Source: Candidatus Rubrimentiphilum sp. (GTDB taxonomy: Bacteria > Vulcanimicrobiota > Vulcanimicrobiia > Vulcanimicrobiales > Vulcanimicrobiaceae). From it: 64,000 bases of DNA. Below the pieces are notes generated by a model. It made no database searches. It was given only the letters and a program-made list of their open reading frames with translations, and had not been told where the DNA came from. Position numbers and translations under genes: made by a program. Of the stretch, positions 27,928 to 34,585 are shown piece after piece. The stretch's first letter is position 1. Every line of letters begins with the position of its first letter. The stretch lies in NCBI GenBank assembly GCA_035710515.1, contig DASTDE010000003.1, positions 124,001 to 188,000 of the forward strand. Direction: 5' to 3'.

Positions 27928-29586
27928 CTACAAGCGCCAATCGATGCCTTTGGAGTCGGCCGTCTCGATCGCCGTTTCGTAGCCGGCGTCGGCGTGCCTC
28001 ACCACGCCCAATCCGGGATCGGTTGTCAGCACGCACTCGAGCCGGTCGCGCGCGTCGTCCGTGCCGTCAGCCACAACCACCATACCCGCGTGCAAGCTGT
28101 ACCCGATGCCGACGCCGCCGCCATGGTGGAACGATACCCAGTGTGCGCCCGCCGCGGTATTCAAAAGAGCGTTGAGAACCGGCCAATCCGCAATTGCGTC
28201 GCTGCCGTCGCGCATCGCTTCTGTTTCGCGATAGGGTGAGGCAACGCTGCCGGTGTCGAGGTGATCGCGGCCGATAACGATCGGCGCGCGCAGCTCGCCG
28301 GTGCGCACCAATTCGTTGAATCGCAAACCGGCCTTCGCTCGATCGCCGTATGCCAGCCAGCAGATCCGCGCCGGTAAACCTTGAAACGCAACTCGTTCGC
28401 GGGCCAGTGTGATCCAGCGGCGCAGCGACGCGTCATCGGGAAACAGGCGCAACAGTTCCTCATCGCAGCGCGCGATGTCGTCCGGCTCGCCCGAGAGCGC
28501 CGCAAAGCGAAACGGTCCACTGCCGCGACAGAACAGCGGCCGGATGAAGGCTGGAACGAAGCCCGGAAAATCGAACGCGCGCTCGACGCCTGCGCGCTGC
28601 GCCATCGCCCGAATGTTGTTTCCGTAATCGAAGACGACAGCGCCCGCTTGCTGAAACTGCAGCATCGCGCGCACATGCTCGGCGACGGTTGCAAATGCGC
28701 GCCGCTCGTATTCCTGCGGATCGCGCGAGCGCAACTCCGCGGCTTCCTCCACCGAAAGGCCGGCCGGAACATAAGCGCCGATCATATCGTGCGCCGGCGT
28801 CTGGTCGGTGACGACGTCGGGTCGTAATCCTTCAGCCACCAGCGCAGGGAACTCCGTGCCCGCGTTCCCCCGATAGCCAATCGAGATTGCATTCCCGGCC
28901 GCGCGCGCGGTTTCGACCTCGCGCAACGCTTCTTCACGCGAGGCAACAACGCGGTCCAAGTATTTCAGCTCGCGGCGGCGTTCGAGCCGCGAAGGATCGA
29001 CGTCGACGATCAGCGCGATCCCTTCGTTCATCGTAATCGCCAACGGCTGCGCGCCGCCCATGCCGCCCGCGCCGGCCGTTAGCGTCACGCGCCCGCGCAG
29101 CGCGCCGCCGAAATGCTGGCGCGCGAGTTCCGCAAACGTCTCGTACGTGCCCTGAACGATGCCTTGCGATCCGATGTAAATCCACGAGCCCGCGGTCATC
29201 TGCCCGTACATCGTCAAACCTTGCGCTTCGAGTTCGCGGAAAGTCTTGAGATCGGCCCACTTGGGGACGACATTTGCGTTGGCGATCAGGACGCGCGGCG
29301 CGCGCGTGTGTGTTTTAAAGACCGCCACCGGCTTGCCGCTCTGCACCAGCAGCGTCTCGTCGCTTTTTAGGCGCTTAAGCGTGCGGACGATCGCCTCAAA
29401 CGCCTGCCACGAACGCGCCGCGCGTCCGTTTCCGCCATAGACGATCAAATCGTCCGGGCGTTCGGCGACGTCGGGATCGAGATTGTTCATCAGCATGCGC
29501 AGCGCGGCTTCTTGCGGCCACGCTTGGCACGAGAGCTCCGTCCCGCGCGGCGCGCGCACGGTCCGAGCCGCCGGCGGCGCCTTCAC
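27928..29586 (-). CDS. hutU: Urocanate hydratase
   Basis: Second step of histidine degradation, adding water across urocanate with a tightly bound NAD+. 552 residues. Family blocks: [66 protein letters not shown], then the NAD-binding [15 protein letters not shown] and later [16 protein letters not shown]. The C-terminal [20 protein letters not shown] is also conserved. It overlaps hutH by four bases and is followed immediately by hutI, so all three are co-translated. Confidence 0.96.
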
Positions 29587-31139
29587 AGCAGCGCCCTCCC
29601 GATAGCCTTCTCGGCCGCGGCGACCAGCTTTCCGCTTCGGATCAGCTCGCGCGCGGACTCGATGTCGGGCGCCGGCGCCCGATCGTCGCTCCAGGGTGCA
29701 ATTCGCTCGCGCGCGGCTTCATGCGCCGCCTGCGTCCCGTCGCCGGAACGCAACGGCCGCCGAAAATCGGTTGCGCACATCGCGCCGAGCAGTTCGCAGG
29801 CCAGCGAACCTTCGACATTGTCCAAGACGCGATCCAGATTTAGCGCTGCCGTCATCCCCATGCTGACGTGATCTTCCTGACCGGCGGAGGTCGGAATGGA
29901 ATCCACACTGTTCGGCCACGCCAAGCCTTTGTTCTCCGAAACGAGCGCGGCCGACGTGTACTGCACGATCATCAGTCCCGATTGCAAGCCCGAGCGTCCA
30001 CTCAAGAATAGCGGCAGCCCGCGCTCCTCGCCATTCAACAAGAGGTACAAACGGCGCTCGCTGATGCCTGCCAACTCCGCCAGCGCGATCTTCAGCAGGT
30101 CGCTCGCCAGTGCGACGGGTTGTCCGTGGAAGTTGCCGCCGGTCAAGAATACGCCGTCGTCGGGGAAGACGAGCGGATTGTCCGTCACCGAAATCGCTTC
30201 GGTCTCGATCACGCGGCGCGCGTGGGCAGTGGCATCCCGCACCGTCCCATGAACGACGGGGATACACCGGTACGAATAGGGATCTTGCACGCGCCCGCAC
30301 TCGCGGTGCGATTCGATAATCTGCGAACCGCGCAGCAGCGCGCGCAAGCCATCCGCCACGGCGGCTTGGCCCGGATGCGGACGCAAGGCGTTGATGCGGC
30401 GATCGAAGACCCGGTCCGTTCCCAGAAACGCCTCGAGCGACATCGCGCCAATCACATCGGCGGCTGCGATCAGCGATTCCGCGCGCAACAAGCACAGGGC
30501 GGCTATGCCGGTCATCACTTCCGTGCCGTTGACCAGCGAGAGCCCTTCTTTGGCGGCAAGCGTGATCGGCTTGAGGCCGGCGAGCTCCAGCGCTCGCGCG
30601 CTGCTCATGCGCTCGCCGCGAAAAAATGCCTCCCCCTCGCCGATGAGGGTCAGCGTCATGTGCGCCAGTGGCGCCAGATCGCCGCTCGCACCGACCGAAC
30701 CTCGCGAAGGGACTAAGGGCGTCACGCCGCGATTCAGCAACGCCGCCAACAGATCGAGCGTCTCTTCGCGGATGCCTGAATGGCCGGCGGCCAGCGAGCT
30801 CACGCGCAAGACGCCTGCAGCGCGCACGAACGGTTCCGATAGCGGCTCGCCGGTGCCGGCGGCGTGACTGCGAACGAGATTCAATTGCAGTTGGTTGGCG
30901 TCCGCGGGCGCGATCGTCACGTTTGCCAGCCGCCCAAAGCCCGTCGTCACGCCGTAGATGGGTTCGCCCTGCGCGAATTTTTCTTCGACCAAACGTCTGG
31001 CGGCGGCTACGCGTTTGCGTGCGCCGCCCTCTATGCGAACCTCTGCGCCTTGTTCGGCGACGGCCCGAATCGCTTCGAGTGTCAGCCGCCTTCCGTCGAT
31101 TTCAACGGCGGCGGCGCCGGTAGCTACAGAGACCCCCAA
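29583..31139 (-). CDS. hutH: Histidine ammonia-lyase
   Basis: Removes ammonia from histidine to give urocanate. 518 residues from a TTG start at 31139, 16 bases inside the preceding secreted-protein gene. The prosthetic MIO group forms from A151-S152-G153 in [14 protein letters not shown]. Other blocks: [13 protein letters not shown] and [13 protein letters not shown] near the N-terminus, and [27 protein letters not shown] is the only plausible start near the expected N-terminus, which may keep expression low. It is the first enzyme gene of the hut operon. Confidence 0.95.
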
Positions 31140-31639
31140 TTCGGTTTAGACCCCGACGCAAACGGCGGTCCCGCCGAAATGACGACAGCTTCATGGTTGC
31201 GCAGCGGAATGAGCTTCGGATCGCGCGTCCATACATGACCGTTAACAGTGAAGCGCAGGGCGCCGCCGCGCGGCGCTCTTAATCTGCCGGCTTGGGTGCG
31301 GCTTAACGGCACCGCCCAAATATCGAAGAACTGTCCCAACGTGAAGAGTTGATTCACCGGAGATTCGATGTGGATCATCCCGTTGTTCGAATGCGTGTGC
31401 AGCCAGTACAGACAGCCGACGCCGAGCGGAATTCCGATGTTGCCGGGAACCGTTACCTGACGCCCGCGGTCGAACATTTGCAGATTCGCGTGAATGTGCA
31501 GGGCCGCGCCCTCGCCATAGTCACAGCGAATACCGTCAATCGGCAACCCGCCGAGCATGTTCTGCGCGCGCGCCGGTGTAGCCGGCAACGCGATGATTGC
31601 AGCCAGTGCGATGAAGACAAGAGTGGAACATCTGTGCAT
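31124..31639 (-). CDS. Secreted histidine-rich protein heading the hut operon
   Basis: 171 residues from ATG 31639, chosen because a clean signal peptide (LVFIALAAIIALPATPARAQ) begins there; an ORF extends 28 codons further up. The mature part has a spaced histidine pattern: LHIHANLQMF, then CLYWLHTHSNNGMIHIES, suggesting metal binding, perhaps in a small beta-rich fold. I know similar uncharacterised secreted proteins but no function. Overlap with hutH suggests co-expression. A periplasmic role in metal or histidine handling is speculation. No good ribosome site is visible before the ATG. Confidence 0.65.
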   Translation of the reverse strand: MHRCSTLVFIALAAIIALPATPARAQNMLGGLPIDGIRCDYGEGAALHIHANLQMFDRGRQVTVPGNIGIPLGVGCLYWLHTHSNNGMIHIESPVNQLFTLGQFFDIWAVPLSRTQAGRLRAPRGGALRFTVNGHVWTRDPKLIPLRNHEAVVISAGPPFASGSKPNWGSL

Positions 31640-31685
31640 AACTAAAGTTTTTTGTGGAAACGTTGTGAGTATGCCAACCGCCCCC

Positions 31686-31715
31686 TTGCATACGACTTTT
31701 AAGCCGTGATACCAT
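31686..31715 (+). promoter_or_regulatory. Candidate promoter for the structured RNA
   Basis: TTGCAT at 31686-31691 and TACCAT at 31710-31715, separated by 18 bases, resemble -35 and -10 boxes. Transcription would start near 31722, just before the first hairpin of the candidate RNA. Similarity to consensus is modest. Confidence 0.3.
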
Positions 31716-31730
31716 CCATTCACTTCGATA

Positions 31731-31912
31731 AAACGAAGGGCGATGAACGTATCGGTCGCGACTGGAACATGTTGACGAAGGCCGGGATGACCGGCAATCT
31801 GAGTGAGTCAGTCAAACCGCCGGGTACGGCGTCAGTGGGGCTCCTTCACGGGAGTCAAACAGGCGAAGACCGGTGAGTGAATACGTCGGGGCCCCGGAGA
31901 AATCTGGGGCTT
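31731..31912 (+). ncRNA. Candidate structured RNA, closed multi-hairpin fold, class unknown
   Basis: Within a gene-free stretch of 275 bases the plus strand shows a small hairpin CTTCG-ATAAAA-CGAAG. A long-range helix then pairs ACGTATCGGTC (31747-31757) with GACCG (31868-31872) and ATACGT (31881-31886), leaving an 8-base bulge. Four hairpins sit inside it: GCCGG/CCGGC (31781-31795), CTGA/TCAG (31799-31811), CGCC/GGCG (31818-31831) and GGCTCC/GGAGTC (31839-31856). A last hairpin, GCCCCGGA-GAAA-TCTGGGGC (31891-31910), has a GAAA loop, which favours the plus strand. No U-run follows. It matches no riboswitch, SRP, 6S, tmRNA or RNase P consensus I remember. On the minus strand it would be a leader of the hut operon. 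Confidence 0.5.
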
Positions 31913-31914
31913 CG

Positions 31915-32901
31915 TCATTTCTCCCGGTAGTTCGATGCAATCTCCGCCAGCAGGCTCCGGAGCCGTTCCCGCGCTTGCGGCGGCGCTAAGATTTCGGCTT
32001 GCGCTCCCCAGCCTAGAATCCAGCGGACCAATTCGTCCACGTCGGCGACACGGTAGGTGATCTCGACGGAGCCGTCCTCGCCCCGGTCGACCGACCTGTC
32101 GGCCACAACGCGCGCCGCGGTCGCGGCCTTGGCTACGCGCTGAGCGAAACGCACGCGAACCTCCGTCGTCTCGCCGCCGTGCAAAACGCCGCTGATCGAG
32201 CCCGCGGCAAAATCCTCGACGTTAAAAGCGGCCGGCTTAACAAAGGTTTGCGTCGTGACCGTCAGCTTGGAAATGCTGTCCACCGCGAAGACGCGCATGT
32301 CGCGGCGGCCGTGATCGTAGGCCACGCAGTAGACGCGTCCCGAGTTCACAACGAAGCCGTACGGGTCGGCGCGCCGCTTGGACTTGACGCCCTCCTTGTC
32401 TTCATAGGTGAAGGTCACGCTGCGCGAACTCCGTTCGGCCGAGCTGAGGAGGCCGAAAGCCTTTTCGCCTTCTTTGTCCAGGCGGATCTCGCTGAGCCGG
32501 AACGCGACCGAGGACGGAGTCTGCAGGCGCTCTTTCACGCCGCTGCCTGTCGAGCCGACGACCTTGGCGGTAACCTCGTCCACATAAGCCCCGATGGTGC
32601 CACCCAGCGTCGCGCCGATGGAGCGCAAGGCGACGAGTCCAAAGAGCTCGCTGCTGCTTAGCTCAAGCCGTTTTAGGCTATAGCCGTCTGCAAAACGATA
32701 GAGGTTGGCCGAGCGGTCGAAATACCACGGGAAGCCCGCGTCGGCCAGCACGGCCAGGTAGCGCCGCAAACTGCGCGTGCTGGGACGGCGATCGCCCTCG
32801 GCGATGCGATCCTTTAGGTCCTCGAAAGAAAACCGGCCCTCGTCGATAGCGTTGAGCAACCGGACGAGCAGAACGATCTTCGGCTCACTCGGCCGCTCCA
32901 C
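31915..32901 (-). CDS. WYL-domain transcriptional regulator
   Basis: 328 residues. The N-terminal winged helix-turn-helix (LLNAIDEGRFSFEDLKDRI then RPSTRSLRRYLAVLADAGFPWYFDR) is followed by a helical linker. The WYL-type sensor lies at about 150-240 (SRSVTFTYEDKEGVKSKRRADPYGFVVNSGRVYCVAYDHGRRDMRVFAVD), where the signature WYL is replaced by VYC. The C-terminal WCX-like extension ends VRWILGWGAQAEILAPP. WYL proteins sense nucleotides or other ligands in DNA-damage or defence settings. Its end abuts the candidate RNA and it lies upstream of the hut operon on the same strand, but a regulatory link is unproven. Confidence 0.85.
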   Translation of the reverse strand: MERPSEPKIVLLVRLLNAIDEGRFSFEDLKDRIAEGDRRPSTRSLRRYLAVLADAGFPWYFDRSANLYRFADGYSLKRLELSSSELFGLVALRSIGATLGGTIGAYVDEVTAKVVGSTGSGVKERLQTPSSVAFRLSEIRLDKEGEKAFGLLSSAERSSRSVTFTYEDKEGVKSKRRADPYGFVVNSGRVYCVAYDHGRRDMRVFAVDSISKLTVTTQTFVKPAAFNVEDFAAGSISGVLHGGETTEVRVRFAQRVAKAATAARVVADRSVDRGEDGSVEITYRVADVDELVRWILGWGAQAEILAPPQARERLRSLLAEIASNYREK

Positions 32902-32932: not shown

Positions 32933-34585
32933 TCAGCGGCCGGTTGGTTCAGGCGCCGGTGTCGGACTGGCGGGCGACGGCGAGGACTGCGTCTTTGGGA
33001 AGCACCCGTCGGGCGCCGTGATCGGAGGCGCTGACGGAATGGGCGGCGTTACGGTCAGCCCGACCTCGAGCGGATAGTTGGAGCCGCCGTCGGTCATCGT
33101 CTGGAGCTGAATGTTCGATTGGCCCGGCTGCACGGTCAGCGGTTGGCCGATCTGGTAGCGCTGCGAAAGCCGGACACAGCCGACGTCGATCGGCGGCAGC
33201 GCGCCGTTGATGACGAAGCTGCTGCGGAGCGGCCCACCCATGGGCGATTCATACAGATAGATCGTGGCCGGTTGTCCTGTGGCATTGTTCACGGTGAAAT
33301 CGATGGTGCGCCAGACGCCGTACTCGCCGAAGTCGCGCCCTTCGGGCGGCTCGACCACCGGCGGACTCTGCAGGCCGTAGTTCAGCGACGCGTCTTCACC
33401 ACCGACGGTGTACGATAGCGCTTCATGTGCGTAACCGGCAACGTTGAAGACGCCGGTGCGATGGTGTCCGTCGCCTGGAAGTTTGGCTTGGGCCAGCAGC
33501 GAGGGAATGGACGCGTCAGGCGTTTCCGGCGCGACCGAAAGCACTGTGACGTCAACCGGGCCGCCGGAAACAACGCGAACGTCGACAGTACCGGCCGCGC
33601 CTGCCAGGCTCGTCAGCGGGAATCGCTCGGCAACATAGGGTGATTGAGGGTCAACCGTTACGATGATGCCTTGATTCGCGGGTTTTTGAACCAGGAAGTC
33701 GCGCGTAACGAAGTGACCCACCGTCATGACGTCGATATTGGGACCGCGGGAGACGTCGATGAGCTGAACCGTCGCGGAACCGGCGGGCGCCGAAAAGGCG
33801 ACGACGAGATCGTGCGGCTGATTGTTGTTATCGTGATAGTAGTAGAGGCGGGCCGGCTGACCCGGTGAGACGCGGCCGCGATAGAGCACGCCTTCGGTGG
33901 TGATATGTTCGGGATCGTCGTCGTACAGCAGCAGCGACGGCGCGAACGACTCGGTTGGAACGTTCTGAAGGTTGACGTTGACAACGCTGTTCACCGGATA
34001 GTATTGATCGCCGCCGGTAATCTGAACTTGCGCATCGAACGCGCCAATGCTTCCGGGCGCCAGGGCGGACGGTAAAGCAAAACTCGTTTGCGGGTTTGCT
34101 CCCGGCGCAGACTGCACGTTTTGAAGAAGCGCTTTTTGGACCGTCTTCTGAAGCCACGCTTGGTCGACGGGATTGCCGGTATATCGCAAGCTTAACGATT
34201 GCGCGGCGATCGTGCCCGCATCCAAACCGACGCGCACCGGCACCGTTATGCTTTGATTGGTCGCGTCCGTTACTGTCAGCGTTGCGCGCCCGAGGGTTTG
34301 GCCGGCCGTTAACGTCAGGACGTGCGCCGCTTGATCGACAGACCATGTTGCAATCGGGTTGTCGATCGCTGCGGTTACTGCTCCGTTTGCGCCGGCGATT
34401 GTGATGCGCAGGACGTTCCCGGGATAAAGATGATCTGCCGCGGCCGGCTGCGCGCTAAGCGCCGGCGCGACAGTCGGCGACGCGATGGGTGACGGGGAAG
34501 GCGCGGGAGACGCGCCGGACGGCGCCGGCGGCGTTCCTTGCAAGAGTGCCGCCAACAGAGCGGCCGCTAACTGCATGTATCCCAT
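32933..34585 (-). CDS. Large secreted beta-rich protein with Pro/Ser/Thr linkers, function unknown
   Basis: 550 residues. Short signal peptide (MQLAAALLAALLQG) then a Pro/Ala/Ser-rich linker to about residue 50. The next part (LYPGNVLRITIAGANGAVTAAIDNP and TLTAGQTLGRATLTVTD) looks like an immunoglobulin or cadherin-like beta sandwich. The remainder is also strand-rich: LYYYHDNNNQPHDLVVAFSAPAG, then PATIYLYESPMGGPLRSSFVINGA. It ends in a second Pro/Ser-rich tail. I do not recognise a named family. Probably a surface or periplasmic structural protein, transcribed alone. Confidence 0.65.
   Translation of the reverse strand: MGYMQLAAALLAALLQGTPPAPSGASPAPSPSPIASPTVAPALSAQPAAADHLYPGNVLRITIAGANGAVTAAIDNPIATWSVDQAAHVLTLTAGQTLGRATLTVTDATNQSITVPVRVGLDAGTIAAQSLSLRYTGNPVDQAWLQKTVQKALLQNVQSAPGANPQTSFALPSALAPGSIGAFDAQVQITGGDQYYPVNSVVNVNLQNVPTESFAPSLLLYDDDPEHITTEGVLYRGRVSPGQPARLYYYHDNNNQPHDLVVAFSAPAGSATVQLIDVSRGPNIDVMTVGHFVTRDFLVQKPANQGIIVTVDPQSPYVAERFPLTSLAGAAGTVDVRVVSGGPVDVTVLSVAPETPDASIPSLLAQAKLPGDGHHRTGVFNVAGYAHEALSYTVGGEDASLNYGLQSPPVVEPPEGRDFGEYGVWRTIDFTVNNATGQPATIYLYESPMGGPLRSSFVINGALPPIDVGCVRLSQRYQIGQPLTVQPGQSNIQLQTMTDGGSNYPLEVGLTVTPPIPSAPPITAPDGCFPKTQSSPSPASPTPAPEPTGR

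Follow-up and report, generated by a model that had tools for sequence, protein, structure and literature searches.

Several described bacterial systems bear on the locus reported here. Small RNAs of the RsmY/RsmZ/CsrB type are paralogous and structured, have a conserved upstream activating sequence, and act by protein sequestration. 6S RNA (RF00013), which binds RNA polymerase, is a standalone transcript of ~190 nt with its own promoter, and sometimes occurs as two paralogues, 6S-1 and 6S-2. Attenuating leaders and riboswitches combine a compact pseudoknotted fold with an intrinsic terminator directly after it, while promoters regulated by DnaA carry the DnaA box TTATNCACA. The RNA gene considered here resembles the RsmY/RsmZ/CsrB type in its paralogous structured copies and its upstream element, and it too may sequester a protein. 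However, its boxes are TGTG repeats and not a GacA palindrome, it contains a pseudoknot, and no conserved GGA-loop repeats, the mark of a CsrA sponge, were noticed in it by eye. Sequence comparison establishes its homology among relatives, its structure and strand, the conservation of its promoter and terminator, and a promoter element held in common with minC.

The gene occupies positions 31722 to ~31922 on the plus strand of the window, i.e., the whole 64-kb stretch of DNA that was analysed. It is wedged between two minus-strand ORFs, at 31124–31639 (or to 31723 from a GTG) and 31915–32901, and in this sense the stretch is gene-free, as the sequence-only reading had it. The first ORF, which is divergent, encodes a small secreted protein bearing HxH motifs (HIHANLQMFDRGR...CLYWLHTHSNNG); in the own genus, its likely ATG and box 1 of the upstream element overlap. 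This protein has no match in Pfam or NCBIfam, is encoded next to the RNA across the family, and possibly belongs to a metal-binding family. Past it, leftward on the minus strand, lie hutH (29583–31139; histidine ammonia-lyase, Pfam Lyase_aromatic 3e-191), which is the first gene of the hut cluster, and hutU. The second, convergent ORF encodes a WYL/WCX transcriptional regulator (Pfam WYL 1.3e-17, WCX 1.4e-17). It is adjoined by the gene for a 550-aa secreted protein of no recognised family (32933–34585, minus strand), which is kept near copy 1 of the RNA in other genera.

No family of Rfam 15 matched anywhere in the 64 kb at the gathering threshold. With E values up to 10 allowed, the best match at 31600–32000 was BjrC68, with 16.5 bits against the 39 needed and lying mostly on the terminator, which agrees with the earlier failure to assign the stretch to a known class. 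A tRNA/tmRNA scan of the window returned none. Identity with tmRNA, SRP RNA or RNase P RNA was rejected, as the own genome encodes all three elsewhere. The literature search returned neither a described ncRNA of the Eremiobacterota nor a report that joins a DnaA box, an sRNA and minC.

Transcription unit, fold and strand

The promoter comprises a −35 element TTGCAT (31686–31691, plus strand; consensus TTGnnn) and, 18 nt further on, a −10 element TACCAT (31710–31715, plus strand) with TGA in front of it (extended −10, TGnTAcnAT). Both are kept among homologues, ~50 of which show TTGnnn, a spacing of 17–18 nt, and TGnTACNAT. A promoter-like pair on this strand had been proposed from the sequence, and its conservation bears this out, though a consensus scan overlooked it. 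Transcription would start at 31722, 7 nt past the −10 element and at a conserved ACTTCG; this corrects the start first given, 31731. It would end at ~31922, in the T-rich tail of an intrinsic terminator (31887–31922, plus strand), for a predicted transcript of ~200 nt. The terminator hairpin (31887–31914) is the one whose GAAA loop had attracted attention. Its sequence, the loop included, varies freely among genomes, but its place directly 3' of the pseudoknot strand is retained.

The proposed helices were examined in alignment A5, which holds 51 distinct sequences aligned with covariance model R1. In it, 33 of the 42 pairs are changed on both sides, with 198 such cells against a shuffled mean of 52, and 92.7% of the paired cells can pair, against 26–42% in slid registers; no shuffle attains any of the five measures. 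The use of R1 for the alignment biases A5 toward P0–P6. In the MAFFT alignment A3, which was not fitted to a model, 14 pairs are changed on both sides, a value that none of 500 shuffles reached. Kinship inflates shuffle tests of this kind; better control comes from the slid registers and from the changes seen in the pseudoknot of distant genera.

The fold, all on the plus strand, opens with the 5' hairpin P0 (CUUCG/CGAAG, 31723–31727 with 31734–31738), in which 99.6% of cells are paired and 2 pairs are changed on both sides. It is followed by the hairpin P1 (31740–31744 with 31755–31759; 3 of 5 pairs changed on both sides) and by P2 (31760–31764 with 31809–31813; 4 of 5), which is capped by the hairpin P3 (31781–31785 with 31791–31795; 5 of 5). 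A further arm (31818–31875) consists of P4 (31818–31821/31872–31875), P5 (31830–31833/31862–31865 and 31835–31836/31859–31860, with conserved symmetric internal loops), and P6 (31839–31844/31851–31856); changes on both sides affect 4 of 4, 7 of 8 and 4 of 4 pairs in helices 6, 7 and 8, respectively. For P4, the long-range pairing of CGCCG (31818–31822) with CGGUG (31871–31875) holds in 87% of cells, and a local hairpin, CGCCG/CGGCG, was rejected as weaker (74%).

The loop of P1 also supplies the 5' strand, ACGUAU (31747–31752), of a helix whose 3' strand, AUACGU (31881–31886), lies immediately 5' of the terminator; since P1 is itself a conserved hairpin, this helix is a pseudoknot. Scored on an alignment whose model (R1) lacked that helix, it shows changes on both sides in 4 of 6 pairs and 90.5% pairing, and none of 500 shuffles matches its covariation score. 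Where homologues have diverged, new sequences in loop and 3' segment are still complementary (ACGTTCG/CGAACGT, CGAGAA/TTCTCG, ATGTGA/TCACAT), with the proviso that the loops were chosen by hand and that in 3 of the 12 cases the run is no longer than 4. Of the long-range helix envisaged in the sequence-only reading, this is the part that is conserved and covaries, whereas its extension, GGUC (31754–31757) with GACC (31868–31871), is confined to the own genus.

The plus strand folds at −84.3 kcal/mol (z −2.95; 2 of 200 dinucleotide shuffles were as good), while the minus strand is unremarkable by the same comparison (z −1.24). Moreover, G–U cells outnumber A–C cells by 225 to 52, and pairing on the minus strand amounts to 84.5% as against 92.7% on the plus strand. 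The excess of G–U indicates an RNA read from the plus strand. The hut genes do lie leftward on the minus strand, and a leader on that strand controlling histidine degradation had been offered as an option, but we now hold it to be exceedingly improbable: the strand signal is for plus, the promoter and terminator read in the same direction, and another gene separates the element from hutH. The synteny is likewise against it, as the RNA occurs in g4 with a neighbour other than hutH, and hutH occurs in g25 without the RNA. The other option of that reading, an independent small RNA, is supported by the covariation, by a promoter and terminator that are independent of the neighbours, by the occurrence of one or two copies at unrelated loci and by the lack of an Rfam match. 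Taken as predictions, these features describe a standalone structured small-RNA gene.

A divergent RNA of the 6S type would have a similar length, its own promoter and, in some genomes, two paralogues, and RF00013 has no gathering-score match in the window and no match in the own genome. Nevertheless, we consider this identity very improbable. The new RNA has P0, a pseudoknotted P1 and two arms in place of one long rod with a central bubble, RF00013 gives no match at 31600–32000 even at E 10, and sister families hold clear 6S RNAs. Furthermore, 6S-like RNAs below the Rfam cut-off are found elsewhere in genomes that carry the new RNA (G018, G008, G112, G113, G114, G086 and G118). Such sub-threshold matches, among them G018:C6:946177, G008:C77:5534 and G112:C69:37413, suggest that the Rfam model under-detects 6S RNA in this family.

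Distribution, copies and gene neighbourhood

In a BLAST search of 60 related genomes, each of five sister species had one copy with 96–99% identity, and diverged matches of 68–88% identity came from eight further genera of that family; the weakest, in G029, comprises 34 bases and is a candidate only. Among 149 genomes of the phylum, covariance model R1 found the RNA in 58 and the broader R2 in 66, the E values of such custom models being rough. Weak R2 matches in g25, G016 and G125, and the second match in G018, fell within coding sequence, lacked both promoter and boxes, and were excluded. About 61 genomes remain after the removal of weak matches, all within a single family, which we take to be the Baltobacteraceae. 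When 84,980 species were scanned for an exact pattern, 14 records matched, of which 10 were labelled Eremiobacterota or Eremiobacteria and 3 were bacterial MAGs with RNAs near-identical to those of family members; the remaining one, archaeal and without the 5' hairpin, was dismissed as a chance match. The viral contigs searched gave no match.

In most genera, copy 1 is flanked on one side by the secreted-protein gene and is followed on the other by the WYL gene. This context is retained in G009 and G130, though transporter-like genes replace hutH there. The g25 genomes have the order hutH–secreted protein–WYL–ClpC intact, without the RNA and without any three-box element (L127, L131).

Many genomes of the family carry two copies, at unrelated loci, the second one diverged. 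The second copy of the own genome (C1:902500–902660) is located between the gene of a peptide-type solute-binding protein and yqeY, and has promoter, upstream boxes and terminator in common with copy 1. In g47 and G112, copy 2 directly precedes an OPT oligopeptide transporter gene (L074, L075, L080, L083, L108, L128, L133), with only a few tens of nt from the terminator to the OPT start codon and little space for a further promoter. Read-through or attenuation into OPT is possible at these loci, and the peptide-transport neighbours of copy 2 constitute a lead, not evidence of function. A tandem pair of copies, ~190 nt apart, was seen in G007 (L087 5299–5824). The OPT arrangement, in which read-through could feed the transporter gene, together with the compact pseudoknotted fold and the terminator directly behind it, is what recommends a cis-acting attenuator or riboswitch-like leader. 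With that exception, a regulated gene immediately downstream was not found. No plus-strand gene follows copy 1, the one in the window included, and throughout the family it converges with WYL; the genes downstream of copy 2 differ elsewhere, YqeY in the own genome being 311 nt from the covariance-model match. As most copies lack a downstream gene in cis, we judge a leader function quite unlikely.

The three-box element and minC

Upstream of the promoter, the plus strand contains box 1 (TGTGCATAAC, 31633–31642), box 2 (TTGTGGA, 31652–31658), and box 3 (TGTGAG, 31664–31669). In ~50 homologues the boxes read TGTGNRTAA, YTGTGGA and TGTG, with spacings of 20–21 bp between the first two and 11 bp between the last two, i.e., in helical phase, and box 1 stands at a fixed distance in nearly all aligned homologues. 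The end of the element is 54–56 nt from +1 in 73 of 73 RNA-linked sites; box 2 is 69–71 nt from +1, the few rows at 58–59 being registered on box 3.

A pattern made from the element, with up to 2 mismatches allowed, occurs at 129 places in 99 genomes of the family, against ~5 for the reversed-pattern control; the boxes had been defined on this same family and the mismatch classes are our own. These sites include 73 before RNAs confirmed by covariance model and 28 before minC-like ORFs. With 0–1 mismatch there are 99 sites, which divide into 70 confirmed RNA copies, 18 minC genes, 7 further RNA-type loci and 4 others; the last are near-identical to the minC sites of sister species and are probably minC sites as well. 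At 0–1 mismatch, the element appears to be restricted, throughout the 99 genomes, to the upstream regions of this RNA or of minC. When up to 2 mismatches are allowed, three sites match in the own genome, namely those of both RNA copies and one ~40 nt upstream of an ORF called MinC by Pfam and NCBIfam (G000:C4:393893–393926; L113, L200); the ORFs of five sites match Pfam MinC_C with 5e-28 or better. minC is a septum-site gene whose product inhibits the FtsZ ring. The element stands before minC in about 30 relatives also. Between the boxes and the start codon, the own minC leader contains a GC-rich inverted repeat, which may provide further control.

The element also flagged RNAs that the phylum-wide covariance-model search had overlooked (G020, G022, G021, G108 and G036). 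At the predicted start, R2 scored all five of these, which belong to the 7 further RNA-type loci: strongly in G020 and G022, weakly in G021 and G108, and in G036 on an RNA cut off by the contig end. The other two of the 7, in G014 and G129 (g9), gave no covariance-model score at the expected position, nor did the loci of the related G127 and G121, yet all four possess the boxes, hairpins corresponding in place to P0 and P1, loop–tail complementarity, and a terminator. These very diverged g9 candidates (L172, L177–L179) are likely, though not proven, homologues. In the genome presumed to be that of the cultured Vulcanimicrobium alpinum WC8-2, the element precedes minC and a candidate for a diverged copy of the RNA. 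This organism grows as rods or filaments of 1–92 um (PMC9758169), which makes division control there a question in itself.

As at DnaA-regulated promoters, the reverse complement of box 1 fits the DnaA-box consensus, and the second target, minC, is a division gene. For these reasons DnaA is the first choice as the regulator, an assignment in which our confidence is about half. The fit of box 1 (TGTGNATAA) extends to most sites, whereas boxes 2 and 3 are degenerate and fit only partly and poorly; in addition, the target here is an RNA, and binding is a prediction only. At dnaA itself, a search for the three-box pattern gave no match. The 11-bp direct TGTG repeats would also fit the site of an OmpR/PhoB-type regulator. 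The neighbouring WYL protein is another possible regulator, against which it counts that g25 genomes retain WYL and have neither RNA nor element; this natural absence of both could help to pin down the regulator.

The resemblance of the upstream sites to DnaA boxes might alternatively mean that the locus is a conserved DNA element, either a replication origin or a DnaA-titration site, and no RNA gene, a view to which we attach next to no weight. The compensatory pairs, the terminator and the promoter argue for an RNA rather than a mere DNA element. Moreover, dnaA is on another contig, by rpmH/rnpA-type genes and with its own TTATCCACA boxes; this standard-looking neighbourhood indicates that the 31722–31922 locus is not the origin. 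The 64-kb window shows no clear switch in GC skew.

A possible role in the cell cycle

The reading that we favour, on which our judgement is evenly poised, is that of a trans-acting structured RNA, co-expressed with minC under a cell-cycle regulator, likeliest DnaA, and probably binding a protein. Some regulator would bind the three in-phase TGTG boxes, located ahead of a promoter of the ordinary sigma-70 type, and would set the transcription of the small RNA and of minC jointly. RNA polymerase would yield the ~200-nt transcript, stopping at the RNA's own terminator, and the transcript would fold into P0, P1, the P2–P3 arm and the P4–P6 arm, a fold locked by the pseudoknot that the P1 loop forms with the final unpaired segment. 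The RNA would then most likely act in trans by binding a protein, either as a sponge or as an RNP scaffold tied to the state of replication or division, and not through an antisense seed. The element common to the RNA and minC suggests a cell-cycle role, and we infer both this role and a protein target, bearing in mind that co-regulation with minC is no proof of a common function.

Many multi-copy bacterial sRNAs under one regulator act antisense. The same small RNA might accordingly regulate mRNAs by base pairing, with or without a chaperone and with a loop or junction as the seed, which we regard as possible but clearly less probable than protein binding. The unpaired AAC between P2 and P4 (31815–31817) is nearly invariant, as such a mechanism would have it. 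However, positions that are at least 90% conserved make up 37 of 84 paired but only 6 of 84 unpaired positions, there is no long conserved single-stranded seed, and pairing of the RNA with the minC leader does not go beyond chance (z +0.5 to −2.0, 12 genomes). Because conservation sits in the helices and the symmetric internal loops, protein binding is suggested rather than a seed.

The structured RNA family described here is well supported; Rfam 15 lacks it, and the literature searched contained no description of it. It covers one family of globally distributed soil bacteria (Ca. Eremiobacterota), often as paralogues. The only detectable link that its promoter element provides is the one with minC; for an orphan RNA, so direct a hint of what it does is rare. 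In the most far-reaching version, which we think rather unlikely, the RNA and minC would form a regulon of two genes driven by DnaA at the three phased boxes, with a division or replication protein as the RNA's binding partner. If this were true, a structured RNA would couple chromosome replication with Z-ring inhibition across the Baltobacteraceae.
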